Source of the DNA: Hybos culiciformis
Lineage: Eukaryota > Arthropoda > Insecta > Diptera > Hybotidae
Direction: 5' to 3'
NCBI GenBank assembly: GCA_964007475.1
Contig: CAXFZM010000042.1
Location: 62,001-126,000, forward strand
Length of the DNA stretch: 64,000 nucleotides
Shown: piece by piece, positions 15,270 to 61,003 of the stretch
Layout: each line of letters begins with the position of its first letter
Numbering within the stretch: position 1 is the stretch's first letter
Translations under genes and position numbers: made by a program
Notes under the pieces: model-generated
What the model was told of the DNA's origin: nothing
Seen by the model: only the letters and a program-made list of their open reading frames with translations
Databases searched by the model: none

Positions 15270-15766
15270 ATATCACTTCGTCAAGTTATAAAAGAATATC
15301 GATACAGTTACATACATGTGTTAAACGAACAAAAAATGTATATAAGAAATTGAAAACAAAAAAGTTGTTAAATCCTAAGATTGATTCGCGTGCATTTTGG
15401 TAATTTATAAGGGGAAAGAGGAATACTGATGACTGGAATACGCGGATAATTTCTCGAATGATCCTGAAATTATTTGTGAGCTTTTTGCAAATTGCTTCAA
15501 ATTGGCTTTTAAGAGTGATTTTGATCATGATTAAAGTTCTAATTCCAATTCTCCAACTCGTGACTTCTTCAATGCCAATAATATTCCCTCTTTTTCTCAT
15601 CTTTACAGTATTGATTTTTCTTTTTTCAATGCTAACATTGAGAACCATTTGTTTAAAGTTTCAAATAATTACTCAAGTGGACCTGATGGAATACCATTAT
15701 CGATCCTTAAAGGTTCTGCTGAATTGATGTCGGTTCCATTGGGCATAGTTTTCAACAAATCACTAG
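15270..15766 (+). pseudogene. LINE reverse-transcriptase ORF, 5' part (split by Polinton)
   Basis: This is part of ORF2 of a non-LTR retrotransposon, covering the linker between endonuclease and reverse transcriptase. The plus-strand frame includes NDPEIICELFANCFK (about 15455-15500) and SSGPDGIPLSILKGSAEL (about 15680-15735), a signature of the Jockey/CR1/R1-like groups before the polymerase fingers. It ends in FNKSL at the Polinton target site CACTAG (15761-15766), and the reading resumes in the same element at 50019. At least one stop and one frameshift lie inside, and the endonuclease half is not seen upstream. The element was already damaged, or has decayed since, in addition to the insertion. 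Confidence 0.8.
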
Positions 15767-21714: not shown

Positions 21715-21793
21715 AAAAATTTATCTAATTTATTTTGTTTTAAAAAAGTATAAATAGTAAACATGTTATGCATTTAATATAAAAGAGTTCAGA

Positions 21794-22495
21794 ATGATAC
21801 CTCTTAAACATCCATTTACAATGATTGTTGCAGGTCCATCATCTTGTGGAAAAACAACTTTTGTAGAGAATTTCTTAAAACAAAACAACTTAATACAACC
21901 GAATATAACAAAAATATTATGGTGTAATCCAGAATCATCTGCTTTACCAAAAACGCTTAAATACTTAGATATAGAATTTTATAAAAATATCCCAGAAAGT
22001 ATTGAAAATAAAAACAATGACCGTCTATTAGTAATTTTAGATGATATGATGACAGAAGCATACAATAAGCAAATATGTGAGTTGTTTACAAAAGGCTCCA
22101 ATCATCGTAATTTATCAATAATTTTATTGGTTCAAAACATATTTCATCAAGGAAAATTCTGTCGTGACATTTCGTTAAATACTAAATATTTGACATTATT
22201 TAAAAACCCCCGTGATATGTCACAAATCATTCCTCTGGCTCGACAAGTATTTCCTCATTGTCTTCAAGATTTTGTGAAAGTTTATAATGAAGCTACCTTA
22301 CCAGCTCATGGTTATATTCTGCTAGATTTAACTCAAGATTGTAATAGTTTATTGCGGATACGAACTAACATTTTAGAAAAAAACTTTTGTGAGATTTATT
22401 GCATTGAATCCGATCTAAATAATAAAAAAATTTGTCAAAAGTATGAAGAGGTTGAAGAAAAACCTACATTTATTACAAATACTACAAAAATCTAA
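21794..22495 (+). CDS. Polinton packaging ATPase (FtsK/HerA type)
   Basis: This is a P-loop ATPase expected to drive DNA into the capsid. The start MIPLKHPFTMIVAGPSSCGK contains the Walker A motif GPSSCGKTT at residues 14-22. Walker B is LLVILDDMM near residues 79-87. The downstream LSIILLVQNIFHQGKFCRDI matches the sensor region of the A32-like family found in Polintons. At 233 residues it has the usual length and no internal stop. It opens the plus-strand cluster of virion genes and its end overlaps the start of the next small gene (22443) in another frame. Confidence 0.93.
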   Translation: MIPLKHPFTMIVAGPSSCGKTTFVENFLKQNNLIQPNITKILWCNPESSALPKTLKYLDIEFYKNIPESIENKNNDRLLVILDDMMTEAYNKQICELFTKGSNHRNLSIILLVQNIFHQGKFCRDISLNTKYLTLFKNPRDMSQIIPLARQVFPHCLQDFVKVYNEATLPAHGYILLDLTQDCNSLLRIRTNILEKNFCEIYCIESDLNNKKICQKYEEVEEKPTFITNTTKI

Positions 22496-26277: not shown

Positions 26278-27007
26278 ATTTTTACATGATGGGAACAAAA
26301 ATAATTATATTTCGATCATTATACCTGGCAAAATAATCTTTTTCCTGACATTTTAATATATTTAATTATTTTTTTGAAAAAAATTTATTATTTTACAAAT
26401 TTTTTTTTTACACAACTTAACTTCAGTTGAAAGTTTTCAAATTTAAGTTTACATCCCTAATCATTTATGTTTTTCTTTATCGTTTTGTTTTGGAAAAAAG
26501 CAAAAATCGTGACGCGTTTAAAACAATAACATTCAATTTGACGACGCGTTTAAGGCAAAACGTGTAAAAAAAAAAATTCTTATTCATATACAGAGTGACT
26601 ATACTTATTTTAATTTTAAAAAGTTTACTTAAAAATTTATAAAAAAATAAGTATTTTGGGTTTTATGCTAATAATAAATTTAGAAAACAATTTTTGAAAT
26701 GTTACAAAATATTTTTGTTGTTTAAAAAATAGAAATAAAGGTTTTTTAAACAAAAAAATTTCAATACAACCTGAAAAATTTAAATATGTTGAGAGGTAAA
26801 TTTATGCAATATACCTTGTAAATTAGAAAAATAATACACATAAAAATGTATTGCTGTCCTTGTCTAAAAAAAAGTTTACACTATGCTACTTATCTTTATA
26901 ATATGTCATCTTTGACGATACATAAGAGTTTTAGTTCAGCCTTTAGCGCAATAATTCTAATGCGCTATTATTGTTATTATTATTCGAATATCGAATGTTG
27001 TTAACTA

Positions 27008-27925
27008 TACCTTTTCAACTTCAAATTGGAAATAATCATTTTCAAATTGGAAATAATCATTTTCAAAATGGAAATAATCATTTTCAAAATGGAATTAATC
27101 ATTTTCAAAATGGAAATAATCATTTTCAAAATGGAATTAATCATTTTCAAAATGGAAATAATCATTTTCAAAATGGAAATAATCATTTTCAAAATGGAAT
27201 TAATCATTTTCAAAATGGAAATAATCATTTTCAAAATGAAAATTAATCTTAAAATAGTAAGGTAGCAAGCCAGATACGATCAAACAGTGTTTGAAGTTTT
27301 TTATTAGTTGCATCTTTGCCAAAAAGTGCAATATACAAAAAAAAAAATTTTTGTTTAAAAAAATGTCGTATATTAAGAAATGGGAACCTGATAATGTTAA
27401 AAATCAAATTTGTGCTTTATAAAACAACTTTCCATCCATTAACCCACCTATATAATGTCGTTTTCACTCCTAAAGTTTTTGAGAGCGCTCTCCAATCCCC
27501 ACCACATTGTTGTGTAAAACATAAATTTTCTTTTTAACATTATCAGGTTCCCACTTCTCAATGAACGACATTTTTTTAAACAAAAATTTTTTTTTTGTAT
27601 ATTGCACTTTTTGGCAAAGATGCAACTAATAAAAAACTTGAAACACTTTTTGAGCGTATCTGGCTTGCTACCTTACTATTTTAAAATTAATTTCCAATTT
27701 GAAAATGATTATTTCCATTTAGAAAATGATTATTTCCATTTAGAAAATGATTATTTCCAATTTGAAAATGATTATTTCCATTTAGAAAATGATTATTTCC
27801 ATTTAGAAAATGATTATTTCCATTTAGAAAATGATTATTTCCATTTTGAAAATGATTATTTCCATTTTGAAAATGATTATTTCCATTTTGAAAATGATTA
27901 TTTCCAATTTGAAGTTGAAAAGGTA
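27008..27925. mobile_element. Fold-back element with 21-bp minisatellite arms
   Basis: Ends are TACCTTTTCAACTTC and its reverse complement, flanked by TA on both sides (27006-27007, 27926-27927). Each arm has about ten copies of a 21-bp unit (GGAAATAATCATTTTCAAAAT) at about 27019-27246, and inverted at about 27690-27915. The inverted repeat continues inward through AGGTAGCAAGCCAGATACG to about 27400 and 27530. The TA duplication suggests a Tc1/mariner-type integrase, but there is no gene. Open frames through the arrays are repeat artefacts. Confidence 0.88.
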
Positions 27926-29457
27926 TAGAGAAAGCTTTTTGCTTTTTTACACATTTTTTTATTACGTATCTACCTATAAATTTTTGCACGATTATGTACA
28001 ATAATGTTGATTTGTTACAAAAAGCAAAAATTAAATAGGTATGTAATTTTTTTAGAGATAAATATTAATTTTTAATTTAAAAAAATAAGTAATTTTTAAT
28101 TTTTTTTTTAAGTTTTGGTAGGTGTGCAGTGCGCATTCTGCGTCTTAAGATGCACGCCACTGCTTGATTCATCACCTTCAACGATAGAATTTATTTCATT
28201 AGGTCATGGTGACACATACAGGGATTTATCGTCAATTTTTTTAAGATTTAAGGTTCAGATATTGAAAAAAGATGGTTCTCTATGGAATGATGATAAGACT
28301 ACTGTAACACCCTCAACTCTTATTGAACAACCTAGGGTTGTCAACAATCTTTTACATTCAATGATAAAACAATGTAATGTCACACTTAACGGCAAATGTG
28401 TTACACCTTCGGATAGTAATTATCATTACAGAGCATACATTGAAAGTTTATTAAATTATGGAAGTGACGCAGCAAATACTCACTTAGAATGCGCTCTTTG
28501 GGAATTGGACAAACCTAACATGAACTCTTTTAATAATGCTGGAGCAGTAGCTCGTCAAAAAATTTTAAATAATAGCGCTGTAGTAGAACTTATGGGAAGA
28601 TTACATGTAGAGATGTGTCGTTCGTGAACGACCGAGTTAAAAAGAACGGATCACTAAAGTGAACGATGACCGATCGGTCAGTAAAAAAAAAATATATCGT
28701 TCACTGTTCATCGTTCTTTTCTAAAAAAAAAAGTTCTGTAGGTGTAGAGAAGAGATAAATGTTTGAAAAGAGCAGTACACTTATTTTACAGCTATAAGGA
28801 AGAAAGAGAAATTGTATTGTAACATTGTAATGTGAATGTGGCTGTGTACAATGGCTAGCTGTTTACTGGTTTAAAAATGTTCGTCTTTTTGAATTGAAAA
28901 TGCCATACGTAATCAAAGCAACATCCATAGAAAAAAAAAATGCAATAACAAAAACTGATGGGAAACATATTTAATATTTAAAGGGATATTTACAGGAAAA
29001 ATTCAAAAGAACAACCGCCTGACTGGTTTTCTTTCTATTATGGTTGGTAAATAAATAATTCAGCTGGTAGATAATTTAATTAAACAAAAAATCTCGCAAT
29101 GTTGTATTTACTTAGTTATTAAGAAAATATTATTGAAATTAAATTAATAAATATACATTTAAATTTTTAAAACGAACAGAAAAATGTCTTTGTTTACATA
29201 TGAAAAATAAATTGATGTCCGCAATAAGTTCTTGCGACAAACACCAGGGGTATTTGCCCATGGATATTATTCTAAAATCCAAATTCCAAAGGCAGGAAGC
29301 AATAAAAAGTAAGTTGCTAAGATAACGAAGTAGCTGTTGCTGTGGAAATGAAAATTTGTTTTCTTTCGTCAAATTTAAATAACTTTAACGTTAAAATTAA
29401 ATTTTTTTTTAACCATATACCTAGTAAGTTGTTAAAAAATTTAAATTAGAAAAAAAA

Positions 29458-33585: not shown

Positions 33586-35879
33586 TCATGCTAATGTTTC
33601 ATGACTACCATTATTTATTAAATACCTTTTATCGTCGAATGGACTTAGAGCTATTTTATTAACATTTTGAGTGTATATGTCATGCAATTTACTTCTAAAA
33701 ACTAGCTGCCTGCCATATATTGTTGATGAAGATAACAAACATTTTTTATAATCGGCGCTTGTTATATTATTCAAAACAAATTTTTTTATACCCTTAGCTT
33801 TTTTAATCTGCTTATTCTTTATTACATCTATTGAATACATTTTAGACCTGAGTCCAATAAATTCTCTCATAATTTTCCCATTATTTTCATCTTTCATTAA
33901 CCCCAAGACTTTTTTGTTAACTAGTGGAATATTATAAAGATTATCACTGGGATAATCTGAAGTATCAAAAAATTTATGACAATCTCGTTTTATTACTTCG
34001 TAAATGTCAGGGCAGGTGATCTCATAGGTTAAACTATCTGTGTCAGAATATAATAGGGCGCTGTTTAATCCAAATTGGGGTAATACATAATTATAATGGA
34101 AATTGTACATATGGACTTTAGAAACATCTAAAACCGTGAAGCCAATATATATAGGTTTATCATATAAAACAGACACCTTATTTAACTGTATAGCCACCAA
34201 ATCTTCTGTGAAGTGAGAGGCGCTATGAAAATTTGGTTTCGATATTAATGCTCTTGCCCCTAAATGTCGACCTCGACTTTCCCAACTATCTACGATTTTA
34301 ATGTCCTTTCTTTTATCAACATTTTCCATGGTTTTACCGTATACCGCATTATTGTACAATTTAAATTGATCTTTATCAAATTTATTTGTAGCTTGAGTTC
34401 TATAATGATTATTTAAATCAATAAATTTTTTTAACCATGGTTTTTGCGCGAATTTTAAAATTTTATGAATTTTTACTAATTTTAGACCGTGCTCCAAACA
34501 TTGCTTTAAGTTTCGATAATGTATAACCTAATTTTCTTTATTATAAAGATTGGGTATTAACTTTTTATATTTTCCATTTGGTGGTCGAAAATTTTCAGCA
34601 CAAAAAGGTAAGTCATTGTGCTTGTCATGTAGCTCTTCAGGATATTCTAAGTCCACTTCTAAAATGTAGCCGTTGTCATCATTGTCCATCATTGTCCCCT
34701 ATTTCATTAACATTAAAATTACTAACATCTAAAACCCATTGAAAATTTTTATAAGGTAAAGGTTGAGTCATCGCCCAACCATATAGGTTGTTAGCGTCTA
34801 AATAAATCAAATATATTGATAACTCGATGGAGTTATATTCGTCTCCCATATATTTATTATTGGCCTTAGAATATCTTTTAGAGCACTGACTTATCCCACC
34901 CCTAATGCCTATCTGTATCATTTTGAACATTTCTATATCGGTTATAAGTTCTAATTCAACCCCCGTATACTTCAGCATAGCGTCCCAAGACAACCGTGGA
35001 GCGGTGAAATAATGTGCTGCATCTAGGTTGTAAATATTCTGGCATAATTTTCTAAACTTTTCAAATATATCAGCCAATAAAAGAATATCAGATTTTAAAT
35101 AAAGTTCCGTATAGTGTTTAAAAGTTTCGCATTCAAATTCTCGCCGAACATTTTGAGCATGCTCATAATCAGTTCCCCTACATTCACAACCTATTAATGA
35201 GTTTTTAAAGTTTTCTATTGAAGGTAAAGATGTTTCATCTAATTTCTCAAAACTATCAAAATATTCATACGGAAAAACCCCCTTACGTTTCAATAATGCG
35301 AATTTCGATTCCTCAGGAAAATGTTTTTTAAGCTCCCTCAAATCAACGTTATCTAAATTTGATGATAAAGTATCTAAACTAGAAGCCATAAACCTATTCG
35401 AATCTACGAATCGTAATGAGAATCTTAAATCTGAATTAATGGAAATTTTTTTGCTAAGACTTACATAATGTTCTTTATTAATCGGTATTGCACTTATATC
35501 ACCTTCAATTACATTTAATTCTTTAAATAATAAGTGACAATCGTATCCTGGGAAATTATGGAAACATACCGGAAAATAGTTGGGGAGTTCGAACTCCAAA
35601 TTACATTTTTGATGGGCTGCACCCCTGAAATTACCAGTTAAATGACAATGATCTCTAACTTTAACATCATTTTGATTGAATTTTTTTTCACATATATGAC
35701 AGGCAGAAGCTGAGAGGAATTTAATGTTTTCTGCAGGTGTTAATGGTAGCATAGGGACAACGTTTTTTGTATAATTCAAAAATAAATATTTACAATCATT
35801 AACTAATGAAACTATAAATTTCCTAGCACAATTTTCACCTACAAAAGATTTATAACTATCTAAACTAGAATTAAAAGAA
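33586..35879 (-). pseudogene. Polinton DNA polymerase B, copy 1
   Basis: This is a protein-primed family B DNA polymerase. Reading leftward: a Cys/His segment (SACHICEKKFNQND, RDHCHLTGNFRGAAHQKCN), exonuclease motifs FHNFPGYDCHLLFKEL and FVDSNRFMASSLDTL and YTELYLKSDILLLADIF, polymerase motif A (YLDANNLYGWAM), motif B (YNNAVYGKTMEN) and motif C ([12 protein letters not shown]). The true C-terminus is YLINNGSHETLA. Damage includes a 10-bp tandem duplication near 34680-34695 that shifts the frame after VNEIGDND, and a TAG near 34528. The N-terminus is cut at about 35880 by a repeat spacer, so the protein-primer domain is missing. Catalytic residues are otherwise present. Confidence 0.93.
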
Positions 35880-36104
35880 CATCACCGGGGACGGCAGTCC
35901 CCCGAGTGACGCAAGCACCTTTACGTGTGAAGCTTCACGACAATATATACAGCTAACTTTCGATTTTTTGAACTGTTGACCCTAGCCCCTCATGTTAGAT
36001 ACCGTTGGAAAGGTCTTGGAACGTAGATGCGAAAAATATCATATGTCATCCAAAAAGGTCAAAAGGTCATCAAGTTATGGCCATTTGAATTTTTTTTCAC
36101 CTTT
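35880..36104. repeat. Spacer repeat S1 between polymerase copies
   Basis: It begins with a strong hairpin (CGGGGAC, loop GGCA, GTCCCCCG) and a second palindrome (GTGAAGCTTCAC), and continues with CCGTTGGAAAGGTCTTGGAA and AAAAGGTCAAAAGGTCATCA. Nearly identical sequences lie at 37032-37222 (without the first hairpin) and 39464-39692. It joins the truncated N-terminus of one polymerase copy to the C-terminus of the next. Confidence 0.85.
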
Positions 36105-39692: not shown

Positions 39693-40982
39693 CGTCGAAT
39701 GGACTTAGAGCTATTTTATTAATATTTTGAGTGTATATGTCAGGGATGTCAATAACGTCGATCACGATCTACCGGTCGATCGCGTAATGATTTTAAGTCG
39801 ATCGCCAATAAATATGTATTCATATTTCCGATATTTATTTCGTTTCAAATTGCCAATTTCAATTTTGAAGAATCTCAAAATATTATCTAATTTTCCAAAC
39901 ATGTTGGCACAATTAAAAATTTCTGCTTCTACTAATTATGATGAAAATAAATACATCAAAGAAATTAAGAACGTTATTGAAGAATTTGGTAACCGTTTCC
40001 AAGATTTTAAAAAACTTTATAATGTAGTTTTATTTATGAGTTTTCCATTTGATAGCAATATTAAAACAGAAACAATTGCAGAAAAAATATCAACTATTTT
40101 TGATATGGATAACATTGCACTTGAAACAGAAATTATTACATTGCAAAATTATATTTATATTAAAGCAAGAGCTTCCGGAGATAAATTCTGGAAATATTTA
40201 GCAGATCGATAAATATCCGAATCTAAGAGAGTGCTCACAATTTATGCGCCTGTTTTGGTTCAACATATTTGTACTAATCAGCATTTTCACAAACGAAAAT
40301 AATAAAGTCGAAATACCGAACTAATTTAACAGGCGAACACTTAGAATTTGGATCCCTAAATGTTGCCTTCCGTCTTAATCCTACTTTTAGAAAAAGTAGA
40401 TCGCAGAGGATTTTTACTGCGCGAAGTAGATCTTATAGAAAAATCAGTTGACACCCCTGGTATATGTCATGCAATTTACTTCTAAAAACTAGCTGCCTGC
40501 CATATATTGTTGATGAAGATAACAAACATTTTTTATAATCGGTGCTTGTTATATTATTCAAAACAGATTTTTTTATACCCTTAGCTTTTTTAATCTGCTT
40601 ATTCTTTATTACATCTATTGAATACATTTTAGACCTGAGTCCAATAAATTCTCTCATAATTTTCCCATTATTTTCATCTTTCATTAACCCCAAGACTTTT
40701 TTGTTAACTAGTGGAATATTATAAAGATTATCACTGGGATAATCTGAAGTATCAAAAAATTTATGACAATCTCGTTTTATTACCTCGTAAATGTCAGGGC
40801 AGGTGATCTCATAGGTTAAACTATCTGTGTCAGAATATAATAGGGCGCTGTTTAATCCAAATTGGGGTAATACATAATTATAATGGAAATTGTACATATG
40901 GACTTTAGAAACATCTAAAACCGTGAAGCCAATATAAATAGGTTTATCATATAAAACAGACACCTTATTTAACTGTATAGCC
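39693..40982 (-). pseudogene. DNA polymerase B, copy 2b, split by a hAT and cut by BEL
   Basis: The C-terminal part of a fourth polymerase unit. It includes motif C ([12 protein letters not shown]) but ends before motif B, at 40982, where BEL gag sequence begins. A 719-bp hAT derivative (39741-40459) sits within it with an 8-bp duplication. The remaining sequence is nearly identical to copies 1 and 2. Confidence 0.9.
39741..40459 (+). mobile_element. Deleted hAT derivative with transposase fragment
   Basis: Ends are CAGGGATGTCAA and TTGACACCCCTG, flanked by the perfect duplication GTATATGT (39733-39740 and 40460-40467). The plus-strand frame at about 39860-40212, continuing past the stop-free end in another frame (KYPNLRECSQFM), matches the C-terminal part of ZBED5/GTF2IRD2-like hAT transposases. 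GTCGATCGCG and GTAGATC motifs lie near the ends, as in that family. The N-terminal and catalytic parts are missing. Confidence 0.92.
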
Positions 40983-42254
40983 GAGGAAACTGCAGGTCAT
41001 CCAGCTGAGTATTTTACAACGCAGCTCATTACCATCAACAACTTATGGGACCAGATTGAAAGGTTGAACTACACTATTTGGGAGACAACAGACGACCCGG
41101 TGGCACAAGGATATAACATGACAGCGTACATTGAACTCGAAAAGGCCGTCCAAGAATATCGTGTAGAATTGGCTGTGAAACAACAGGAACGTGAAATAAC
41201 CACAACACCAAAAATAGAAAAACCAACTCTAGACTTGCCGAAGATGACTAGACCCAAATTCGATGGATATTACTTGAAGTGGCAACAATTTTTTGACATG
41301 TTTTCTCAAATGATTCACAATCAACCATTGCCCGCAATTCAGAAAATGTGGTATCTAAAAACTAATGTGACTGGAGAGGCAGAAAGAGTAATTAGGCATT
41401 TAACCTTAACTGAAAGTAATTACGAAGCAGCATGGAAAATAATGCAAGAGAGGTATAATAATAAGCGTGTATTGTTTGCAGCCGTGATTCATAAACTAGT
41501 ATCACAACCCAACTTATCATCAGATTCAACCTCAGCAACATCGGTTAAAAATCTACATGATACCACTTACGAAAGTTTAATAGCCCTCAATAATTTAGGT
41601 ATTGACACGTCATCCTGGTCGCCACTATTAGGTTATCTATTACTCAAAAAACTGGATCGCCAAAGTCATGTCCTGTTTGAGCAATCATTAGAGAATCCAA
41701 AAGAAGTACAACCAATAGGAGACTTTTTAAAATTTCTGGAGTGTAGGTTCCAAACATTAGAAGCAATTGGATATAAGCATAAATCATCAAGTAAAAAAAT
41801 TGTGTCATCAATCACAACAACCAATAGTGAAGGTCAAAATTGCAAAATGTGCCATGAGTCGTCACATCCGCTGTTTGCATGTAAAACGTTTCTTCAATTA
41901 ACTCCAGCTAATCGACTTCAATTTGTTCAGAAACAACGACTATGCATGAACTGCTTGAAATTCGGCCACAAGGCAATACAGTGCTTGTCTCGCAATTGCA
42001 TGAAATGTGATCGTAAACATAACACCTTATTGCACCTTGATGAGAAAAATAATGCAAGAACAGCCAGTCACAATGAAGCAAAGGCGCCATCTGTAACATT
42101 AACATCATCTATGGAGGACAAGGAGCCAGAGCAACCACTGATCACGTTAACTACATCAAACAATAACAACCGACACAGCAAAAATAAGATTAACATCATT
42201 AAACGGACAAACAATAGAATGCCGAGCTATTTTGGATTCAGGATCACAAATTAA
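40983..42254 (+). pseudogene. gag: BEL Gag, 5'-truncated
   Basis: The frame is open from the junction at 40983, upstream of any ATG, starting EETAGHPAEYFTTQL. Downstream PKFDGYYLKWQQFFDMFSQM is the conserved Gag domain of BEL/Pao. It ends in three cysteine-rich zinc-knuckle-like units (CKMCHESSHPLFAC, CMNCLKFGHKAIQC, CMKCDRKHNTLLH). The N-terminus is missing. The frame changes before the protease near 42190-42250, where these elements normally read through, so a frameshift is likely. Confidence 0.9.
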
Positions 42255-45200
42255 TCTGTTAACCGAAAGAATTATAAGGAAATTGGAATTAAATCCCAAG
42301 CAAACGTCTCTGAAAATCGAAGGTATAGGAAATGGAAGAAAGACCAGTTATCAACGAATTAATATCAATGTTGAATCAATAACAAGTTCATTTGCAGCCC
42401 GTCTTGAAGCGTTTGTATTACCTCATATCATATCAAGCCAACCAACTCAACAGTTCGAAACATCATCATGGCCAATACCAACAAATATAGACCTAGCTGA
42501 TCCGAATTTTTATCAACCGGAACAAATTGATGTGTTGCTAGGAGCAGAATTCTACCATCAATTGCTGTTATCAGGACAAATTTCACTAGGGAAAGGAATG
42601 CTTATTTTACAAAACACTGTTTTTGGATGGGTAATATCCGGAGGTGTTCAACTTAATCATGATCACAGCCCAATTTGTGCAATTCTTAGTGAAGATGAAG
42701 AACGAACAAATCAATTAATAGAAAGGTTTTGGAAACTGGATGACATTGACGAACCTAGCTCATCTCTTACAACCGCAGAAAAACGATGTAAGTCTCATTT
42801 TGCAAACAACACCATAAGAAATGCGGAAGGCAGATTTGTAGTACGGATCCCCTTAGCTGATGATCCATCAGCACTGGGAGAATCCAAAAACATAGCCCTA
42901 AACAGATTTCTAGCACTGGAGAAAAGGTTAAGCAAGGATAATGATACAAGGGAACAATATATCAAATTCATGAACGAATATGAGCAACTGGGACATATGA
43001 GTGAAATCAAACTGCGGGATATTTCGTCACCCCACTATTTTATTCCACATCATTGTGTGATTAAACCAGAAAGCAAGTCAACAAGGCTTCGAGTTGTTTT
43101 TGATGCATCAACAAAAACATCATCAGGTTTATCATTAAATGACATCATGTATAATGGCTCGGTGATCCAAGACGAATTATTTGCCCTATTGATCAGATTT
43201 CGATTATCAAAATTGGTTTTACCACTGATATTCAAAAAATGTACCGACAAATTGTAATGCACAAGAAGGATCGAATGCTTCAACTCATTATTTGGCGAGA
43301 AAATACAAATGTGCCGCTTCGTTATTACCAGCTCAATACTGTCACTTATGGCACGAGAGCAGCTCCGTATTTAGCAATAAAATGTCTACAACAATTGTCA
43401 AAAGAGTATGAAGGATCACACCCACTTGGAGCAGCCGCGTTACGTAATAACTTCTATGTAGATGATGGTTTGGTTGGATCCAATAGTCTCACAACAGCTC
43501 TAGACACCCAACGACAGCTGACAACAATATTGGAATTGTCAGGATTCAAGTTACTGGTGTGATCAACAGTTATTGGACCAAGTACCTGCGGAAGATCAAG
43601 AAGTAAACTTGGATTTTGACAATGACGAGATTGAAGCAATCAAAACATTAGGATTAGTGTGGATGCCGAAAAGTGATAATTTTCGGATCAAGACAGGGCA
43701 GATGCGTGATCAAAAAATAACAAAACGGGTCGTGAACTCGGATTTAGCAAGCATCTTTGATCCACTAGGAATATTGGCTCCTATCGTGGTTACGGCGAAG
43801 ATCTTTGTTCAACAGTTGTGGCAACTCAAGTTAAATTGGGATGAAGAATTACCAAAGGAGTTACAAACTACGTGGATAAGATTTAGGCAAGATATTAAGG
43901 ATCTCCATGATGTCAGTATTCCAAGGCACATATTAGGTCAGAAATCAACCGAATTGATCGAAATACATACATTCGCCGATGCATAGAAAAGGCTTACGGC
44001 GCGGCAACGTACGTTCGAACCACCCAAACAGATGGTACCATAATAATAAGGCTATTATGTTCAAAGTCGCGTGTAGCTCCACTCGACGCTTCCAAGGCTT
44101 GAACTATGTGCTGCATTTCTGGGTGCCCAATTGACTGACAGAATAAAACGTGATCTGGGTTACGAAGATAAACCGACATTTTTATGGTCAGATTCTGAAA
44201 TAGTATTAAATTGGATAAACGCTGCATCGTCATCATTTCATACCTTTGTTGCAAATCGCATTGCAAAAATTCAGGAGTTGTCAGTAATGCAACAATGGCG
44301 GCACGTTGGTTCAAAGGACAATCCAGCTGACATTCTATCAAAAGGTTTATCGCCAAGAAGGTTTTCAGCATGCAACAACTGGTTCTATGGCCCATTTTTC
44401 TTACATGGCAGGCCAACATGGTTTGAAACAGTCGCCAAAAGACACCTAGTAGAAGATGACCCAGAGTTAAAACAAAAGAAATCCACAGCAGTGGCACTTC
44501 CATCAACGTCAACATCAGAAGGAGAAATTGTGTATCAAATAGGTCATCAAAATTCATTTCGGAGATTGCAACGGATTCTAGCCTACATCTTGCGATTTAT
44601 TAGACATTCAAAACCACGGGCAACCTCACGACAACGAGAGATAACACTTACGCCAGAAGAGCTAAATGAAGCACTCATCTTCATCATAAAAACAATGCAG
44701 GCAACAAGTTTTGACAGTGACATAAAACATTTAAAGAAATATGGTGAAGTCAATAAGAAAAGCACGTTATCAGGACTTTCTGCATTTGTGGATGAGAAGG
44801 GAATACTAAGAGTGGGCGGAAGACTCAGCGCGTCGTCGCTACCACATGATTCAAAACATCAGATGCTCATTCCATATAACGACCCGTTTGCAAAAATTCT
44901 AATGAAAATGTTACATGAGGAAAATCTACACTGCGGACCGCAAGCATTATTAGCTACAACTCGTCAAAGATTCTGGCCCATTAAATGAAAAACTATGGCA
45001 AGATCAATTGTACAGCATTGTATGAAGTGTGCTAAAACCCGACCAAAATTGATGAATCAAGTTATGGGAAATTTGCCGGCAAACCGTGTTCGACAAGCCA
45101 GGCCATTCATCAATACCGGCGTAGATTACTGTGGGCCATTTTGGATTCATTATAAAATTCGAGGGAAAAACCTCAGAAGGCATATATGGCTGTGTTTTGC

Positions 45201-46020
45201 TGTTTTGCAACAAGAGCAGTGCATCTCGAAATTGTTAGCGATCTCACGACCGAAGCGTTTATCGGAGCATTAAAACGATTTATAGGGCGGAGAGGAAATT
45301 GCCAAAATTTATATTGTGATAATGCGACAAATTTCGTTGGCGCTAATAACCAATTAAAGGAACTTCGTGGAACCATTTACTCTCACACGGCTCGAGAAGC
45401 TATTACGAAGACATGCAGTAACAAGGGCATAAAGTTCAATTTCATTCCACCTCGGTCGCCACATTTCGGGGGAATTTGGGAGGCAGCTGTAAAATCGGCA
45501 AAACATTTGCTATTTAAGGGCGTGTCAACAGCTTCTCTCACGCACGAAGAACTACAAACTGTAACCGTTGAAATCGAATCAATTTTAAATTCAAGGCCTC
45601 TTACTCCTATGTCTAATGATCCAAATGATGTCACAGCGTTAACTCCTGGTCATTTCTTGATAGGAGAACCATTAACAGCTCAAGTTGATTGCACCCCTGA
45701 AGGGACCAAACCAAGTTTACTAACAAGATGGAAGTTAGTCTCACATTTAAAGCAAGAGTTTTGGGACAAATGGTCAAGGGAATATTTAAGTGAATACAGT
45801 ATAGGTAGAAGTGGAAAGAGGTATCTCCAAACGCAAAAATTGGGACCATGGTGCTTATTAAGGAAGATAATCTACCAGTCCAACAGTGGATACTGGGAAG
45901 AATAGTCGACGTTCATAAGGGAGAAGACGGAGCGGTACGCGTTGCTGATGTACGAACTGCCAATGGAGTATTCAAGAGAGCGGTGCATAAACTTGCCCCT
46001 TTACCCACAGAAGATTATTT
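42200..46020 (+). pseudogene. pol: BEL Pol (PR, RT, RNase H, IN), several breaks
   Basis: Domains in order: protease with AILDSGSQINLLTE (about 42225); reverse transcriptase with RLRVVFDASTK (about 43090), DIQKMYRQI (about 43235, after a frameshift) and NNFYVDDGLVGS (about 43450); RNase H region with FLWSDSEIVLNWI and HVGSKDNPADIL (44180-44340); integrase zinc-binding part with HEENLHCGP and HCMKCAK (44920-45025), core with NTGVDYCGPFW, YCDNATNFVGAN and SPHFGGIWEAAVKSAKHLL, and the C-terminal VLIKEDNLPVQQWILGRI domain (45848-46000). Breaks occur near 43235, 43560, 43985, 44100, 44986 (TGA) and 45180. The order of domains and the YVDD and GGIWEAAV signatures fix the BEL/Pao assignment. Confidence 0.92.
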
Positions 46021-46080
46021 TGGTGAAGACACAGAATCAGAAGAAGGACCAAGCGACAAGTCACCTAAGAAAAGAAACCG

Positions 46081-47836
46081 GTCACCATCCAAACCTGGAT
46101 TATGGGCAGCATTAACAATGTTGCTATTGTTGCCGATAATTTTTGGAAACCCAATCAAAGTCATGGAAGTGAATCAACAGCCTGGATTGCATTTTGAACA
46201 AATTGGAATAATGAACATAGCCATGTCAAAATGGAAGATGATAATCTTTTATGATATGATACCATTTCGAACCGAGTTAGCTACATTTGTTAATGGGACA
46301 GCCGCACTAAGACAACTATGCGAAAGGTCTCAGCAGAAAACAAATTGCAAAACATTGTCCGAAGAGTTTGATCATGTAAAAATAGAGCTGTCTCGGTACG
46401 CAGAGGTGTTACGACTACGACGAGCAAAAAGAGGAGCTTTGAACATAGTAGGAAATGTTGCAAATTCATTATTTGGAGTATTTGATTCGGAGTATGCAGA
46501 CGAAATGGCGAACATGATCGATCAGGTGCGAGGGACATTTATTGCAATTGTTCAAGAATCAAACATTAATCATTGATTCAACAATCAACATAATGAAGCA
46601 TGACCAAGTTGCAGTACAAAATAAATTTGAGAAACTTGACAGGCACATTGACGAATTGCTGAAGAGAATTCAATTGGCTGAAAATGAAAATTATCAAGTC
46701 AAGATATTTCAACTGTTAATATCTCTCTCAGTACAATTAACACTAATATCGTCAAATTTACGAAGAACTGAAGCCGCACTTTGGGATGTGTTTACGGAGA
46801 CGCACCATGGCAAAATAAGTCCAATACTATTGTCACCAATACAATTTAAACAAGAAATCATCAGTATCAAGGCTCACCTTCCGCTCCACCTCCAGCTACC
46901 AGCAGATCAAAATAACATACTAGAATTTTATAAACTCATGAAGGTGAATGGAAGTCTGACAACGAATTATGCTTTATTTGAAATTAGTCTCCCGTTGGTA
47001 AATCACGGGCACTATGATTTGTTTAAAATAACACCAATTCCAGTGCTGGTCAACAACACATTCATTGCGATCAAAAGTACAGTGTCCATGATTGCCATTA
47101 ATTCGCATCGAAGCAAATATCTAGTGATCAACGACCAGGAATTGCAATCGTGTAGAATTATACTCAGTCAAACATTCTTGTGTATTAACCAGCATCCAAT
47201 ATACGACAAGGCTTCGGTATATCACCAGTGTGAAATCGGTCTACTCAATAATGAAACAAAACCACATTGCAATTTGGAAGAGATTCACAAGGAAACCATT
47301 TGGACCCAGCTAAATGATCAGAACAGATCGATATATTCAGTACGATCACCAACAAACCTAACAACAGTATGTGGAACTCAAGTTGGTCAAATAGAGTTAC
47401 GAAATTAAGGAATTATCACTATGGAACCTAAATGCTCGATTCACCATGCTGTTTTAACCATTCAAGGACAGCAAGTGGTATCAAGTTCTGCACAGTTGTC
47501 GTACATCAGCATGGGGCCATTGACCATGATAGCAAGGCCAAATCAATTGGAGGTCACGATGAGAAGAAAAGAACTGGAAAAATATTCACCGCGACTAAAG
47601 GAGCTAACTGAATCACAAGAAAAGCAAGAACAACAGCTATCTGGAGCTACCTAATAAACTGCGAGTACACAATCAACTTCATTACGTAGTGGGTTATTCA
47701 TCTCTCATCTTGACGATTGCAATCATTGGTTACATTATTTGGCACAGCATCCACAGCAAGGTCGAATCCACCGCAGTCACAGATAAACCTAGCATCATAC
47801 CCAGACGACAACAATTCGACGTCCAGGTTAAATAGC
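46081..47836 (+). pseudogene. env: Envelope gene, insect F-type, frameshifted
   Basis: A membrane fusion glycoprotein related to the baculovirus F/errantivirus Env group. A hydrophobic signal-like segment (LWAALTMLLLLPIIFG) follows Pol directly. A furin-like site (RRAKR) near 46425 precedes a glycine-rich fusion-peptide-like start (GALNIVGNVANSLFGVF). The ectodomain continues in other frames (46542-47408, 47421-47654) with paired Cys residues and N-glycosylation sites. A transmembrane segment (LTIAIIGYIIW) and short basic tail end at 47836. At least three frameshifts or stops (about 46550, 47406, 47652) break the gene. I give no repaired sequence. In living relatives it would act at the cell surface. 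Confidence 0.85.
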
Positions 47837-47851
47837 GGTTGAGTTAGTACT

Positions 47852-47866
47852 CAACGGGGGCCAGAA
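47852..47866 (+). promoter_or_regulatory. BEL polypurine tract
   Basis: CAACGGGGGCCAGAA, next to the TGTT start of the LTR at 47867. The purine run is interrupted by CC. Confidence 0.6.
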
Positions 47867-47928
47867 TGTTCACAAACATCATTATGATTTTGAAGAAAAA
47901 AAGAAACAAAAAAAAAAACATTGAACAC

Positions 47929-47976
47929 CAATAATTATGTTGATAAAGCATTACACTTTATCAACCCAATTATTTA
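47929..47976 (+). repeat. Long hairpin in the LTR 5' part
   Basis: AATAATTATGTTGATAAAG and CTTTATCAACCCAATTATT pair around the loop CATTACA, with two mismatched bases. It differs in loop from the downstream array. Confidence 0.75.
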
Positions 47977-48255
47977 TGTGTAATTTAATATGCCTGTAAA
48001 TATTTTGTTATGTTAAGAATGACTTTATACGTTAAGAACGAATTTATATGTTAAGAATGAATTATACGGAATTTGAATATGTAGCAATTTTGGTAAAATA
48101 ATAATTTTATTTTGTAAGTAAATTCCAAATAAAAAATATTATAATACAAATGCTGACTAGGGACTAAAATACTATAAAAATGCATGAATTCGAATAATAA
48201 AGTCTTTATAATTTTAGAAACAGATTAAAGTGTTTGTTCTTTTATTGTGATCCCC

Positions 48256-48674
48256 TTATTATTAAGGTTCCAAGTGCCCTAATAATAAATTCAGTAGAAG
48301 TTGTTGAGGTTTCAAGTGCCTTAATAATTTCATAAAACAAAGGAAGTTGTTGAGGTTTCAAGTGCCTTAATCATTTCATAAAACAGCGGAAGTTGTTGAG
48401 GTTTCAAGTGCCTTAATAATTTCATAATAGATTGGATTCCAGTCCAAGTGCTGGAATAGCAATCAGGTAAATATAGTAGAGTGGGTCTTTTAGTTCAAGT
48501 ACTAAAACACTCTGCAATATTACCTTCAGTAAGAATTAATACATTGAATATTCTAGTCCAAGTACTAGGGTATTTTATCTCTCAATTTTAGCTCCAGGAC
48601 AGCAGTTCACGGTTGTTTAGTTCAAGTGCTAAACAACCCCAGCAAAATCCGGATTTAGTTCACGCACTAAATTC
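48256..48674 (+). other. Array of nine hairpins with a shared loop in the BEL LTR
   Basis: Hairpins at 48256-48288, 48299-48329, 48345-48375, 48391-48421, 48430-48464, 48478-48513, 48546-48575, 48611-48638 and 48651-48674. Loops read TTCCAAGTG, TTTCAAGTG (three times), TCCAAGTG, TTCAAGTA, TCCAAGTA, TTCAAGTG and TTCACGCA. Stems differ in sequence but still pair: for example GGTTGTTTAG with CTAAACAACC, ATTCCAG with CTGGAAT, and GAATATTCTAG with CTAGGGTATTT using G-U pairs. They lie after the TATA-like and AATAAA signals, so they would be in the leader of the element RNA. Confidence 0.85.
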
Positions 48675-48700
48675 ACCATCAGTTTCGGTATATTCATACA

Positions 48701-50018
48701 ATAATATTTAAAAAAGTTTTTATACAATTAATTTTATAAATTTGCATTTCTAAACTCTTATAAAATATTAAAAGAAAGTTGTTTTATTATTTTCTAAAAA
48801 CATTTCCATGTCTTCCCAGAAACTATCGCTCATTTTAGTCGTCCCAGAAACTCTCGTTCGTCCCAGTCGTCCCAGAAACTCTCGTTAATTTTATCTGCTT
48901 CTATTTCCCCCTTTTCATCTATTTCATCTTGAAAATGACTGTCAGCAGATAGGAGATCTTGCGTTGTGATAACTTGCGCGCAATTCCAGGAATCTGAATT
49001 GATTTTGTTGTGGTTTGAAAAATCAAAAAGATGATAATCATTTAAAAAAGATGAAAATCATTTAAAAGATGTTCATCCGAAACCTGGTGGTTTGAAAAAT
49101 CAAAAAGATGATCATTATCATCATTTAAAAGATGTTCATCCGATACCTGAACAAAGTAATCATCATTATCATCATTAAGCAGCTCGGTCCAGTACTTTGA
49201 ATCAGCTGGTCTAATTAATAAGTTTTCTTGAAATAAAAAAATATTTATTATTTAATATTTATTTTGTTGAAGTAAAAGAAATTGACAAAAAAATCACATT
49301 AAAGATAAAATAATAAAAAATTAAAACTTACCAACAATCTGGATCCGGTTTTCTATCGAACACACATTTTTTAGGTACATTCGTAGAGTTTTGCTGCTTG
49401 CAAAAAATTTACCACATTTATGGCATAATTGTCGCGATTTTCCAATTGAAGACAATTTTAAGATATTTAAAAAAAAAAGTTACTGCTTTCGAATATTAAA
49501 TTCAAATAAAAATTTTCATAAACTAATGATAGCAAGAAGACTCTGATTTGTAGTTTAAAAAAATGCATTTTTGCATTTTTGAATTAAAATCGCTAACTAT
49601 TTGAAATTTATGGAAAACGAAAAAATTTAAATATGATCCTAACTTGCTATTCTTGATCAATAAAAAAAAAATTATACCTACTTTTTATTAAACACTTTTT
49701 TCAAATTAATTTCATAATAATAAACTCAAACTTTCCCGAAAATTGCAATTTTGCAATAAATACTTTTAAATATTATATTTCATTTTAAATATTTTTAACT
49801 TTCATATTCTCACTCCGGAGTGAGGCAGAAAAATTTTTTCATATTTTGTATAATAAAAGTTCAAACTCGATCGAAATTCGATCCGGAGTGAGCCAGAAAT
49901 TTTTTTTCATATTTTATATAATAAAAGTTCATTCACCCTTAATAATTTATATAGTAAAACTTATTCCGGAGTGAATTTTCACTCCGGAGTGAGCCAGAAC
50001 ATACATATCTGTACTACT
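48701..50018. repeat. Polinton right terminal inverted repeat
   Basis: Reverse complement of 15767-17069, ending CATATCTGTACTACT. It contains the second copy of the zinc-finger-like gene and the CACTCCGGAGTG palindromes. The copies differ by scattered substitutions and an indel in the internal coding repeat. Confidence 0.9.
48830..49455 (-). pseudogene. Second copy of the TIR zinc-finger-like gene, start codon changed
   Basis: Same exon-intron layout as 16327-16939 in mirror image, with the donor at about 49331 (GTAAGT) and the acceptor near 49225. The position matching the ATG is TTG here (49453-49455). In the internal acidic repeat (about 49040-49075) this copy has inserted and changed bases. 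Cys residues of the finger are kept. If translated at all, it would need another start. Confidence 0.7.
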
Positions 50019-51512
50019 CACTAGACTTGGCTTACTTTCCTAAGTTATGGAAACATACTTTTATTATTCCACTTCACAAAAGTAAATCAAAATCATCTGT
50101 GGAAAATTATAGATAGACCTGTTGCTAAATTATCAGCTTTTTCTTAAGTTATTTGAAGCTATCCTAACTGATAGAATGGTATTGTATTTGTCCGATGTGA
50201 TTTCCCCTTGTCAACATGGTTTTGTTAAAAAGCGTTCAATTGTTACTAATTTATCGAAATTTGTTGTGTATGTCTCAAATTGTTTTTCTAATAGTTATCA
50301 GGTAGATTGTGTGTTTACTGATTTTAGTAAGGCATTCGATAAGCTTGTTCATAGTACATATATTACTTTCAAATTAATTTAAATTGGGATTTAGTGTAGA
50401 TTTTGTGAAGTGGATTGGATCATATTTAATGGAAGTAAATACTGTATTGCTCTTCGAAATTTTTTTTCTGAATATTTTTCTGTTTATTCAGGCGTCCCTC
50501 GCCATCTGGTCCAATTTTGTGCGTACTTTTGTTAACGACTTACCTACTGTGATTAAATATTTTAAAATATCCCTTCATGCTGATACAAAGTTGTTTAAAG
50601 TTTAAGTTGTTTTTCCGATTTGTATCAATGTGTTCAGTTTTAATCTGACTTGAAATCTTTTTGTAATTGGTTTACGAAAAATCGTCCTTTTTTGAATGTG
50701 AATAAATGTTGTGTCATGAATTTTTCAACAAAGAATTCGGATATAATTTTTGATTATAAATTTAATGATATTTCTTTGAGAAATGTCACACATCATTCGG
50801 ATTTAGGGGTGACTCTTGATAAAAAATTATTGTTTAATGATCACATAAGTGTAATCATAAGTAAATCTTTGGCCCTTTTAGGTTTTTTGCGCCGAGAGTC
50901 AAGTGAGTTTCAAGTCAAGTGAATTTCATTAAGTTGTTGTATTGTTCTTTTGTTAGGCCTGTATTGGAATATGTTTGTGGGGTGTGGTATAAAGTTCATG
51001 TAAGTAGATTAGAATCAGTTCAAAAAAGATTTCGACGCATACTATTTCGTAATCTACCTTAGCACGATCGCTTACATTTACCTCCTTAATCTGAGAGACT
51101 AAACTTGATAAATCTCCCTTCTATTGAAAATCGTCGTAGTTTTTGTTACTTGGTTTTGTATCATTTTAAAAAAGGTTGATTCAGTTTTTTTGTTGAATCA
51201 TATACATTTTAATGTTTCTAATAACAATTCATTAAGAAATGTCAGTCCAATAATAGTACCGTATCGTAGAACAAATTATATGTATTTCTTAAATTTCAAT
51301 GTTGAATGCAGATTATATAATCAGTTTTGTCAAATTGAAAATCTCCATAACTTAAATTCTGTTGCTCTTAAAATTTCTTTTTTAATAATATTTAAAACTA
51401 ATAAAAAAAAAATATATAACATATATTTGTACATATTTAATGAAAATTATAGTAGAGTAAGAAATGCTTGTAATTAAGCCATGTGAAATAAAGAAATAAA
51501 TAAATAAATCAT
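50019..51512 (+). pseudogene. LINE reverse-transcriptase ORF, 3' part and tail
   Basis: This continues the element broken at 15766. It has YFPKLWKHTFIIPLHKSKSK (50035-50095), a degraded NYRPVAKLS, then ISPCQHGFVKKRSIVTNL and CVFTDFSKAFDKL (catalytic Asp of motif A, about 50320). The catalytic FADD-type motif reads LHADTKLF (about 50575) and looks disabled. NWFTKNRPFLNVNKC and the later RPVLEYVCGVWY (about 50955) complete the polymerase. Several frameshifts are present. It ends in a TAAA-rich tail (AAATAAAGAAATAAATAAAT) near 51490-51510, as in Jockey/CR1-like elements. Confidence 0.85.
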
Positions 51513-56574: not shown

Positions 56575-57552
56575 GCATTGCGGACAATTCACCGTCAACA
56601 ATTCACCGTAAGACAATTGACCGTAAAGAATTCACCGTATGGACAATTCACCGTATGGACAATTCATCGAATGATCAATTCACCGTATGAACAATTCACC
56701 GTATGGACAATCACAGTATGGACAATTCACCGTATGGACAATTCACCGTATGGACAATTCACCGTATGGACAATTCACCGTATGAATAATTCATCGCAAA
56801 GAAAATTATTTTTATCAATCCGGGCCGCCCGGATTGATAAAAATAATTTTCTTTGCGATGAATTATTCATACGGTGAATTGTCCATACGGTGAAAAATTT
56901 TTTTTCTAAATTAAATTTTAGGTGGATCATTTAGTCAGTACCACGAGGAGGCGATCTACGTTACAGACCACTTTTTTAGTTCATTTAGTTTTTTTTTGTT
57001 TTTTTTTTTTTAATTTTTTTTTGGTTTTTCTTAAATTTTTTTATTTTTTTTTTTTGGTTTTTGTTAAATTTTTTTATTTTATTTTATTTATTTTTTTTTT
57101 TCTGGTTTTTGTTAAATATTTTTTTATGGCACCAGTTTCTACTTGTGCTAAGAGTTGTTCTAAAATTATTTCATTTTTTCCCTCCTCTGACTTAAGAAAA
57201 TCAATGAATCTGCAAATGGAAGGATGATGAATATGAACAAGTTCATTGAAAGCACGATGCCATCCTTCAATATGGTTATTTGTTTTTGGTAATTCATTTC
57301 CAGAATTGAATAAATTCCACTGATCCATACGGTGAATTGTCCATACAGTGAATTGTCCATACGGTGAATTAACCATACGGTTAATTGTCCATACGGTGAA
57401 TTGTCCATACGGTGAATTGTCCATGCGGTGAATTGTCCATACGGTGAATTGTCCATACGATGAATTGATCATACGGTGAATTGTCCATACGATGAATAGT
57501 TTACGGTGAATTGTATTACGGTGAATTGTTTACGATGAATTGTCCAGACACC
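56575..57552. mobile_element. MULE-type fold-back with minisatellite arms
   Basis: Arms consist of many copies of a roughly 15-bp unit (TGGACAATTCACCGTA) in direct order at 56579-56800 and inverted at 57323-57545. A perfect inner palindrome of about 75 bp is centred near 56825. The whole is flanked by a 22-bp direct duplication (56553-56574 and 57553-57574). A Mutator-like transposase fragment lies inside on the minus strand. Confidence 0.82.
57130..57330 (-). pseudogene. MULE transposase C-terminal fragment
   Basis: The frame reads NSGNELPKTNNHIEGWHRAF and HHPSICRFIDFLKSEEGKNE, matching the N-N-x-I-E-G-W-H motif that holds the last catalytic Glu in Mutator-like transposases of animals. Everything upstream is replaced by the minisatellite arm, which also translates in this frame. 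About 65 residues are recognisable. Confidence 0.75.
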
Positions 57553-59141: not shown

Positions 59142-59388
59142 TGTGTTTTTTTATTATATTTTAGAAATCCAAAATCATATGGGCTATATGGCTTAGTGGC
59201 TAGAACATCGGACTATAAGAGTGAAGGTGTCAGGTTCGATTCCCCAATGAATACATTTTTTTTTTCATTTTTTTGAACATAATAATTTTTAATTTTTTTG
59301 AACATAATTTTTTTATTGGTAGAATATGTAATTTTTTTGCTTGTAATATTGGGCCCTATATATACATATATTTGAAATTAAAAAAGTG
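59142..59388 (+). repeat. tRNA-like repeat, first copy (unit 2)
   Basis: Unit 2 has A box TATGGCTTAGTGG (59187-59199) and B box GGTTCGATTCC (59233-59243). The tail has two AATTTTTTTGAACATAAT-type repeats and ends near GGGCCCTATAT. The whole block recurs at 60535-60765. Confidence 0.85.
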
Positions 59389-60534
59389 TACGATAATTAT
59401 GAATTCCTACCCAAAATTTTTGGTCTGGTAATCTTTATTTCACCAGAGATACCTATTTTGAAAATTTTTTTTTTGCATATTTTGAGCCGGGAAAACCTAT
59501 AATGATAAATTACTTGATCGATATCTATACTATCAATGCCAAAATATACCTATGTTGTTTCTCAAGGCTTTAATAAAATTATTTGTAACGAGTTTAGTGC
59601 GTCCAATATTATAAATTTGTTTTAAAGGATATAATATTTATAACTTTAGTGGTTACATGATCTCTGTAAAAAAATAAAACAAAAACATGAAACGTGAAAT
59701 GAAATGTGATCACTTTTCTTACTTATTTTTCTCCTGGGAAATTCGTACTTTTTTTAGCGTTTATTGTCTTATTAACTACAACAGGATTAACAAATGCTTG
59801 TTTAAATACATATATACATATAACTGTCTTGTCATAGTAAGTGGTAAAACATGTTTGAAAATTAGTTGGGACTTTAGTGATATACCTATTATCCGGTGTC
59901 TAAATTTTTTATTAATGATCACAAGATTATGTAAATTGTGAAAATAAGATTGCCCGAAAAAGCTGTGAATATTGCAGAACGCTGCCCACAATATTGAAAA
60001 ATAGTTCATTCAACTCGCTATTAAAAAACTGATTTCTGAATAGGATAGTTTTTTTTTCACAATTAAATTTTTAAAATAACCTTTGCCACCAAATTTGCTA
60101 CAATTTTACTTAGCTCTGTGTTTTGCTTCAAAAATAGAATATGTATAAAAAATGATAAATTAGTGGCTGATAAAAATATTTTGGTTTGTTTAAATATCTC
60201 AAAAAAACTAATTATTATGAAAAAAAAAAATTAAAATATTTCACAAAAAACTCGTTATTGGGACAGTGTGATGTTCTACTACTAAGCCATATTGTGTATG
60301 AGTTTAGCTTTCTAAAAAAACACAAAAAATTTATTTTCCTAAATAATATTAAATCTCAATTTATGACAAAATGATGAAGGTTTTGTGTTGTAGTATTAAT
60401 TTTTTGTTTGGGTTAGTTAATTTTTCAAACTCGTTTTTTGAGTATTCTAATTCTTTTCTTATTTTCTTTTTTGAGTATTATTTCATATTCTCCTACAATA
60501 AAATAAAAACAAAAAAATGAATGGTTTATTAGAA

Positions 60535-60880
60535 TTTTTTTATTATATTTTAGAAATCCAAAATCATATGGGCTATATGGCTTAGTGGCTAGAACATCGG
60601 ACTATAAGAGTGAAGGTGTCAGGTTTGATTCCCCCCAATGAATACATTTTTTTTTAAATTTTTTTGAACATAATAATTTTTAATTTTTTTGAACATAATT
60701 TTTTTATTGGTAGAATGTGTAATTTTTTTGCTTGTAATATTGGGCCCTATATTTGAAATTAAAAAAAAATCTTTTCATTGGGAATCGAACCAGGCACCTT
60801 CAGACTTACAGTCCTATGTTCTTGCCACTAAGCCATATTCTCCATATGATATTGGGTTTCTTAAATATAATAAAAAAATA
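60535..60880. repeat. tRNA-like inverted pair (units 3 and 4)
   Basis: Unit 3 (plus; A box 60578-60588, B box 60622-60632) belongs to the second copy of the repeat at 59142. Unit 4 (minus; B box 60780-60791, A box 60825-60836) is a diverged inverted copy with the flank ATATCATATGG. Together they make inverted repeats of about 100 bp. Loops read ACTATAAG and ACTGTAAG, tRNA-Tyr-like in unit 4. The acceptor stems do not pair. Confidence 0.75.
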
Positions 60881-61003
60881 AGTATTCTTATTCTAATTTT
60901 TCTGAGAAAAATGATGAGAAAAATTCTATATGAAAATGGATTTTTACCCTCTACCAAAATTCATCAAACGCCGCTAAAGAAGTATAAACTTCAAAACAAA
61001 TAA

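Follow-up and report, generated by a model that had tools for sequence, protein, structure and literature searches.

Background

A short-motif array in the leader of an insect long terminal repeat (LTR) element is familiar from gypsy, whose insulator consists of Su(Hw) repeats, protein-bound DNA sites that stand without paired flanks. In the leaders of retroviruses and Ty1, packaging and dimerisation domains comprise a few distinct hairpins near the primer-binding site, ahead of gag (for Ty1, see PMC5454406). In RNA virus assembly, as summarised in PMC6281560, many stem-loops dispersed over the genome share one loop motif in otherwise free sequence and guide assembly, which is thought to involve coat-protein binding at multiple sites. 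Achilles of the olive fly, a fly BEL/Pao element like the one described here, has direct and indirect repeats of unspecified kind in its 5' untranslated region, between LTR and open reading frame, and a primer-binding site for transfer RNA (tRNA)-Tyr; the consulted passages do not describe a hairpin array with a shared loop, and the word "hairpin" does not occur in the main text (PMC4580426). The consulted parts of a paper on insect endogenous retroviruses (PMC12992720) contain nothing on such hairpin arrays. Here, we describe nine hairpins that display nearly the same loop in one LTR of a BEL/Pao element of the fly Hybos culiciformis, within a 64,000-nt stretch (assembly GCA_964007475.1, contig CAXFZM010000042.1, positions 62,001 to 126,000, forward strand) that we call the window.

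BEL/Pao elements are a major group of animal LTR elements, and to our knowledge little is known of how they select their own RNA for packaging or balance this against translation. The titles and abstract openings covered by our literature search contained nothing on that choice and no hairpin array in a BEL leader. Like the retroviral and Ty1 domains, the array is probably structured leader RNA near the primer-binding site and ahead of gag, but it places one loop on about nine stems, lies inside the unique 5' (U5) region and varies in copy number. As in the RNA-virus arrays, multiple stem-loops combine a shared loop with variable stems, though the ones identified here cluster in the probable leader and are not known to bind a coat protein. 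A non-coding RNA structure was spotted in raw sequence, in a first-pass annotation, and was then supported by genomic copies.

Results

Nine hairpins with partner-specific stems

A sense RNA structure is very probably under selection in this LTR. The first-pass annotation described nine hairpins with a TYCAAGTR-like loop at 48256–48674, and all nine were found:

48256..48288, + strand: unit 1, loop TCCAAGT, one A.C
48297..48331, + strand: unit 2, loop TTCAAGT, 14 of 14 positions paired, including four G.U
48343..48377, + strand: unit 3, tandem copy of unit 2, one mismatch
48389..48423, + strand: unit 4, tandem copy of unit 2
48436..48457, + strand: unit 5, loop CCAAGT
48430-48434/48460-48464, + strand: outer 5-bp helix of unit 5, unconserved
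48466..48524, + strand: unit 6, loop TCAAGT, hairpin 48488-48507 with two further outer helices
48544..48577, + strand: unit 7, loop CCAAGT, 12 consecutive pairs, including three G.U
48611..48638, + strand: unit 8, loop TCAAGT, 10 Watson-Crick pairs plus U.G
48651..48674, + strand: unit 9, loop TCACGC
48217..48242, + strand: possible tenth hairpin, loop TAAAGT, in the repeat (R) region, 9 of 10 pairs; altered in a diverged copy (L161) yet still 9 of 10

The core CAAGT is exact in eight of the nine units, unit 9 being the exception, and with its closing U.R pair the loop reads U-YCAAGU-R, with one additional base in units 1–4. CAAGTG is present in units 1–5 and 8, and CAAGTA in units 6 and 7. 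The G.U pairs said to close the stems of units 2 and 7 are there, as is the perfect 10-bp stem of unit 8. The stems had also been described as independent from unit to unit. Each arm is indeed specific to its own partner, but the number of independent stem types is about five rather than nine, because units 2–4 are 46-bp tandem duplicates and units 6, 8 and 9 have TTTAGT/ACTAAA in common. None of 4227 Rfam models matched window positions 47000–50000 at E values up to 5.

Partner specificity was measured by permuting the 3' arms of the seven distinct units in all 5040 arrangements. The true pairing forms 75 of 84 pairs, against a mean of 55, and is the unique best; without the shared inner three pairs it forms 54 of 63 (mean 35.6). 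Restricted to the five stem types, the score is 40 of 45 (mean 27), and of the 120 possible arrangements no other equals the true one. The same answer was obtained in L161 (five units) and in another copy, L117 (six units).

The RNA of 48240–48690 folds at -138.9 kcal/mol (z -9.8), and none of 100 dinucleotide shuffles was as good, which bears out the structure expected from the annotation. Nineteen of 20 equal-length control stretches from the window scored between z -3.4 and +1.5. The remaining one, 60500–60946, scored z -13.3; it lies in a region with other repeats and perhaps contains inverted repeats. In the predicted fold, units 2 and 4 pair mutually around unit 3, an option that their identical sequences allow, and the loops remain open.

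Genomic copies keep the pairing

We searched the genome (342 Mb in 509 contigs), and the copy numbers given here are lower bounds. A DNA search returned 59 matching pieces from 40 scored of 84 candidates, and a two-hairpin pattern gave 135 matches, compared to one for the reversed control. The genome carries dozens of copies of the LTR array. Among the pattern matches listed, three (L158–L160) were rejected as chance, since they lack an array and resemble the LTR over no more than 27 nt.

Thirty-nine fetched copies and the window were aligned on sequence alone, yielding 36 distinct rows of 40. In these rows 95.7% of stem cells are paired, the outer helix of unit 5 included; this helix pairs chiefly in the window group, is the source of 91 of the 149 broken stem cells, and was excluded from the stem-variant counts and the 48-row pairing counts below. 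All 7 stem variants shared by at least three rows preserve pairing, against 18 of 65 rarer variants (Fisher P 0.0003). The minor-letter fraction rises from stems (0.019) to loops (0.029) to linkers (0.065), and among the loops it is chiefly the Y of units 1 and 8, along with the loop of unit 9, that varies. The first loop position of unit 8 is T in 18 and C in 17 of the 36 rows, while the unit 9 loop (GCACGT-type) begins with G and ends with T in 25 of 36. At this stage no both-side changes between orthologous stems were found, except for one cell in the outer helix of unit 5.

With 48 distinct rows of 50, 97.72% of stem cells are paired, compared to at most 97.24% in shuffles and 35.5–51.2% with slid partners; other copies thus retain paired stems. 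Nine pairs changed on both sides, where 500 shuffles averaged 1.7 and never exceeded 6 and slid controls gave 0–6, so the covariation claimed in the annotation exceeds that of shuffled sequence, though only three or four of the nine are clean. The other five were set aside as likely misalignment, since they are single-row cases (L163, L168), mostly in units apparently missing there.

The clean changes come from a diverged subfamily (L161, L167, L168 and L169) that has kept the array, with no unit 6 detected. L161 matches the window LTR in pieces at 72–78% identity, and when three of its four members are aligned globally with gaps, R-U5 is 83–85% and the unique 3' (U3) region 76–79% identical over aligned columns. 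In unit 5, C-G has become T-A in three subfamily copies, with L169 retaining C-G. All four carry A-T for T-A in unit 8 and C-G for T-A in unit 9. In the first unit, A-T is replaced by G-C in two copies and by G.U in the other two, a change in which a unit-2-like paralogue may have been set against unit 1.

The structure favours the sense strand

The sense RNA folds better than the antisense in 40 of 40 copies, by a mean of 24.5 kcal/mol, and the window array itself scored z -11.0 in sense and -3.1 in antisense. Within 12 positions of each arm, the seven distinct units hold 12 G.U against two A.C, and L117 holds eight against one. A function in double-stranded DNA would be symmetric; the strand asymmetry therefore argues for RNA rather than a DNA site. 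The loop 6-mers have a mean unpaired probability of 0.93 (368 loops across 50 copies, with 0.66 in the lowest copy), compared to 0.37 for all bases. For this single motif, the 10 YCAAGT sites within the coding sequence of the window copy average 0.42 and are not loop-like.

The array probably lies in a leader that is often AUG-free

Two sequence signals precede the array:

48173..48179, + strand: TATA box TATAAAA, present in 8 of 9 copies inspected
48196..48201, + strand: poly(A) signal AATAAA

Three diverged copies have TATATAA at the corresponding place. From these signals we infer a transcript start near 48203 and a poly(A) site just upstream of the array, which would place the array in U5.

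In the window copy, no ATG is found in 48203–48700 (dinucleotide expectation 5.5, P 0.001), against 12 in 336 nt of U3. Among 40 copies, 25 have no ATG in R-U5, 14 have one and one has two; some of these copies are incomplete, and in the longest arrays the count ends before the LTR does. In 7 of the 14 copies with a primer-binding site, the first AUG is that of gag (context AGCAAAATGG), whose frame stays open as far as the fetched sequence goes. Six of these have AUG-free leaders of 654–879 nt past the inferred start, and L100 has 566 nt, measured from the array since its R part is unaligned. For each of the seven leaders, 0 of 2000 shuffles were AUG-free, and CAT, the antisense control, is present 14–23 times. 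Among the other seven, L094, L103, L105, L114 and L119 have one or two AUGs before the gag AUG, while L089 and L099 have no AUG in gag context among those listed. Over evolutionary time, ribosomes appear to have passed through the array region, which would then lie within RNA. A start upstream of the array, as the annotation anticipated, is therefore suggested by TATAAAA, AATAAA and the AUG-free leaders.

The BEL/Pao element and its LTR

The array had been assigned to a BEL LTR, and this assignment was borne out by the LTR itself and by the domains upstream:

40938..47408, + strand: broken gag-pol-env frames of the same BEL/Pao element as the LTR, with Pfam domains
47867..48700, + strand: 3' LTR of the BEL/Pao element, TGTTC...ATACA, 834 bp

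The Pfam matches in 40938–47408 are DUF1759, Asp_protease_2, Peptidase_A17, rve, DUF5641 and Baculo_F-type env. The order Gag DUF1759, Peptidase_A17 region, integrase rve and DUF5641 is that of BEL/Pao, with rve scoring 27.3 bits, under its curated cut-off of 32.6. Two CX2CX4HX4C knuckles were read by eye in the Gag frame, and, for a pol piece, the named protein relatives with the highest scores belong to flies (Teleopsis, Haematobia, Musca).

The LTR ends TG...CA can be read in the window, and 14 copies are followed by a primer-binding site. The LTR closes with the same 12 bases, TATATTCATACA, in 35 of 40 copies, and what comes next is differing DNA or the primer-binding site. Two other copies of the flanking repeat run on across the junction, which together with the shared end fixes the 3' end of the LTR. 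The 5' end, adjoining the purine-rich GGGGGCCAGAA, was placed by eye, and no 5' LTR of the window copy was found within the window. The flanking repeat (48701–50019) is the apparent insertion target of the element and has a second copy at 15766–17068 on the - strand, 97.7% alike. We also observed a perfect 10-bp palindrome in U3 (47939–47965, loop CATTACA), present in 36 of 50 copies by a strict pattern; none was found in three diverged copies by a looser one.

Array length changes by whole hairpins

The number of CAAGT-type hairpins detected per natural copy ranges from 3 to 11, and part of the shortfall reflects decay rather than absence. Unit 2 is present in one to three copies, unit 8 is doubled in some arrays, and the block 5-6-7 is doubled in gag-only derivatives of the element. 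These derivatives (L123, L125 and L127, at C319, C1:86.6M and C1:79.69M) have internal pieces that are 98.9–99.4% alike; they match the window gag at 89% and then jump to the stretch directly before the 3' LTR, and the three internal pieces show no match to the window pol or env. Two of them have an open gag frame of 443 codons, and the third has one of 309. Their arrays are enlarged, with 9–11 detected hairpins of the same loop type. Between two further LTR-array copies, L124 (C251:15950-18500) has only a 35 nt BEL match and carries its own repeats.

From a list with many more, we sampled two further BEL families, one at 48% and one at 45% pol identity. Their LTRs, as matched from one fetched piece to another, measure 316 and 566 bp, they have the same primer-binding site, and no YCAAGT was found in the LTRs of either. 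As far as two families can tell, the array would be an invention of the window BEL lineage. In the family at 45% identity (L174, L175), units of about 100 nt are repeated in tandem next to the LTRs, and another LTR copy lies upstream.

Outside this genome, no array was noticed in relatives in pattern and protein scans of viral and genome contig collections. Among the 69 pattern loci of one viral-contig scan, none had two matches with stems of at least 6 within 600 bases; another such scan gave five loci. The genome contig scan did recover a marine contig (L070) that encodes a 32% relative.

Discussion

The annotation had suggested selection for RNA structure in the leader of the element transcript, and the copies support this by keeping their pairing, by compensatory changes and by a sense-strand bias. 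We propose that in one BEL/Pao family the array forms a structured element within U5, in the 5' leader of its genomic RNA, where many copies of the loop U-YCAAGU-R would be displayed single-stranded on stems of free sequence. A conserved and exposed loop, free stems and many copies would be expected if a protein read the loops, possibly at several sites simultaneously, and the stem only presented them. The reader would most likely be the element's own Gag, whose frame has CCHC knuckles, so that the array would mark genomic RNA for packaging; a host RNA-binding protein would be the next choice. We advance this statement as a whole, protein reader with Gag packaging ranked first, tentatively and with doubt slightly ahead of belief. 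Retention of the array in gag-only elements fits a cis role for the RNA or a role in making Gag. A more specific version would be a tandem packaging-signal array with identical loops and freely evolving stems, its strength tuned by gain or loss of whole hairpins, kept or lengthened in gag-only derivatives that rely on other copies for reverse transcription; we consider this somewhat unlikely in full.

A repeated loop on free stems would amount to a countable recognition code, with the loop as a single bait with which to seek the protein, and the natural range of 3 to 11 detected hairpins per copy makes a rough dose series.

Several observations weigh against selected structure or against packaging by Gag. 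The clean both-side changes number only three, plus the one that is possibly paralogous. With the variant threshold lowered to two rows, pairing is kept in 10 of 21 cases versus 15 of 51, which is not significant (P 0.18). The G.U excess is weaker in L161, at eight against four A.C, and unit 9 has a different loop from the other units in both subfamilies. Since two other BEL families are without it, the array is not a general BEL packaging signal. Gag is preferred over a host protein by analogy.

Translational control is unlikely but is the rival that survives best. The structured, AUG-free leader would either have to be melted by scanning ribosomes or would support internal entry or shunting, balancing Gag synthesis against genome RNA, with a host translation factor or repressor as the ligand of the shared loop. 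That half of the copies with a primer-binding site have no AUG ahead of the gag AUG fits such control, as does the joint retention of array and leader in gag-only elements. AUG avoidance, however, suggests the passage of ribosomes, not an action of hairpins on them, and a plain stem would suffice, yet the loop is conserved. The diverged subfamily even has an AUG in its unit 9 loop (TCATGT, in L161 and L167), opening a two-codon frame in L167.

Pairing of the loops with another RNA, either a tRNA or the element's own RNA, could serve primer capture or dimerisation, and retroviral leaders do employ loop pairing. The loops are exposed, and their partner would be RCUUGR, with the variation at Y being what a G.U-tolerant pair would permit. 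We regard this as improbable: YCAAGU is without self-complementarity, and the primer-binding site TGGTGACCCCGACGTGA is a putative tRNA-Trp site by resemblance, while tRNA-Trp itself presumably lacks CUUG and hence a complement to the loop. No tRNA-Trp gene with the presumed letters was found in the genome. In Calliphora elements, the CsRn1 primer site is described as tRNA-Trp (PMC3630058).

Two related candidates were rejected. A dimerisation palindrome in the unit 9 loop (the partly palindromic GCACGT) is missing in 11 window-group rows and in the diverged group. Mimicry of a tRNA, presumably the anticodon arm of tRNA-Leu CAA or a T-loop/B-box, is suggested by a resemblance of the loop to both, but several units have C at the U33/T55 position, and the loops are not of matching size.

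A mutational origin without selection, in which template switching at hairpins, in reverse transcription or replication, perfects palindromes and tandem duplication multiplies them, is highly improbable. Units 2–4, the block 5-6-7 and unit 8 have indeed been duplicated. Template switching, though, yields perfect Watson-Crick stems, but here G.U pairs persist on one strand, all seven shared variants preserve pairing, and it is the linkers that drift, not the loops or stems. Least probable of all is a DNA element, in which CAAGTG repeats in the LTR would bind an NK-2-type homeodomain protein, the alternative raised in the annotation, or an E-box protein, as an enhancer or insulator: the CAAGT core and CAAGTG are widely shared among the units, but two units read CAAGTA, the motif is neither strand-symmetric in its behaviour nor independent of paired flanks, as an NK-2 site would be, and the strand asymmetry and the compensating stems, which a DNA site does not need as palindromic flanks, are left unexplained.

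Other features of the window

Maverick/Polinton-like pieces were observed across 21761–42000, including a Pox_A32-like ATPase at 21761–22492 and a DNA polymerase B2 at 34682–35881 on the - strand, and several near-identical repeated segments lie amid them at 33.6–41.1 kb. A repeat at 59146–59245 and 60535–60634 looks tRNA-like by eye, in the fashion of a short interspersed nuclear element (SINE), while ARAGORN calls no tRNA there. At 26973–27928, arrays of a 21-bp repeat form an inverted pair with arms that are 94% complementary, and at 56582–57545 two arrays of a 16-bp unit face each other.
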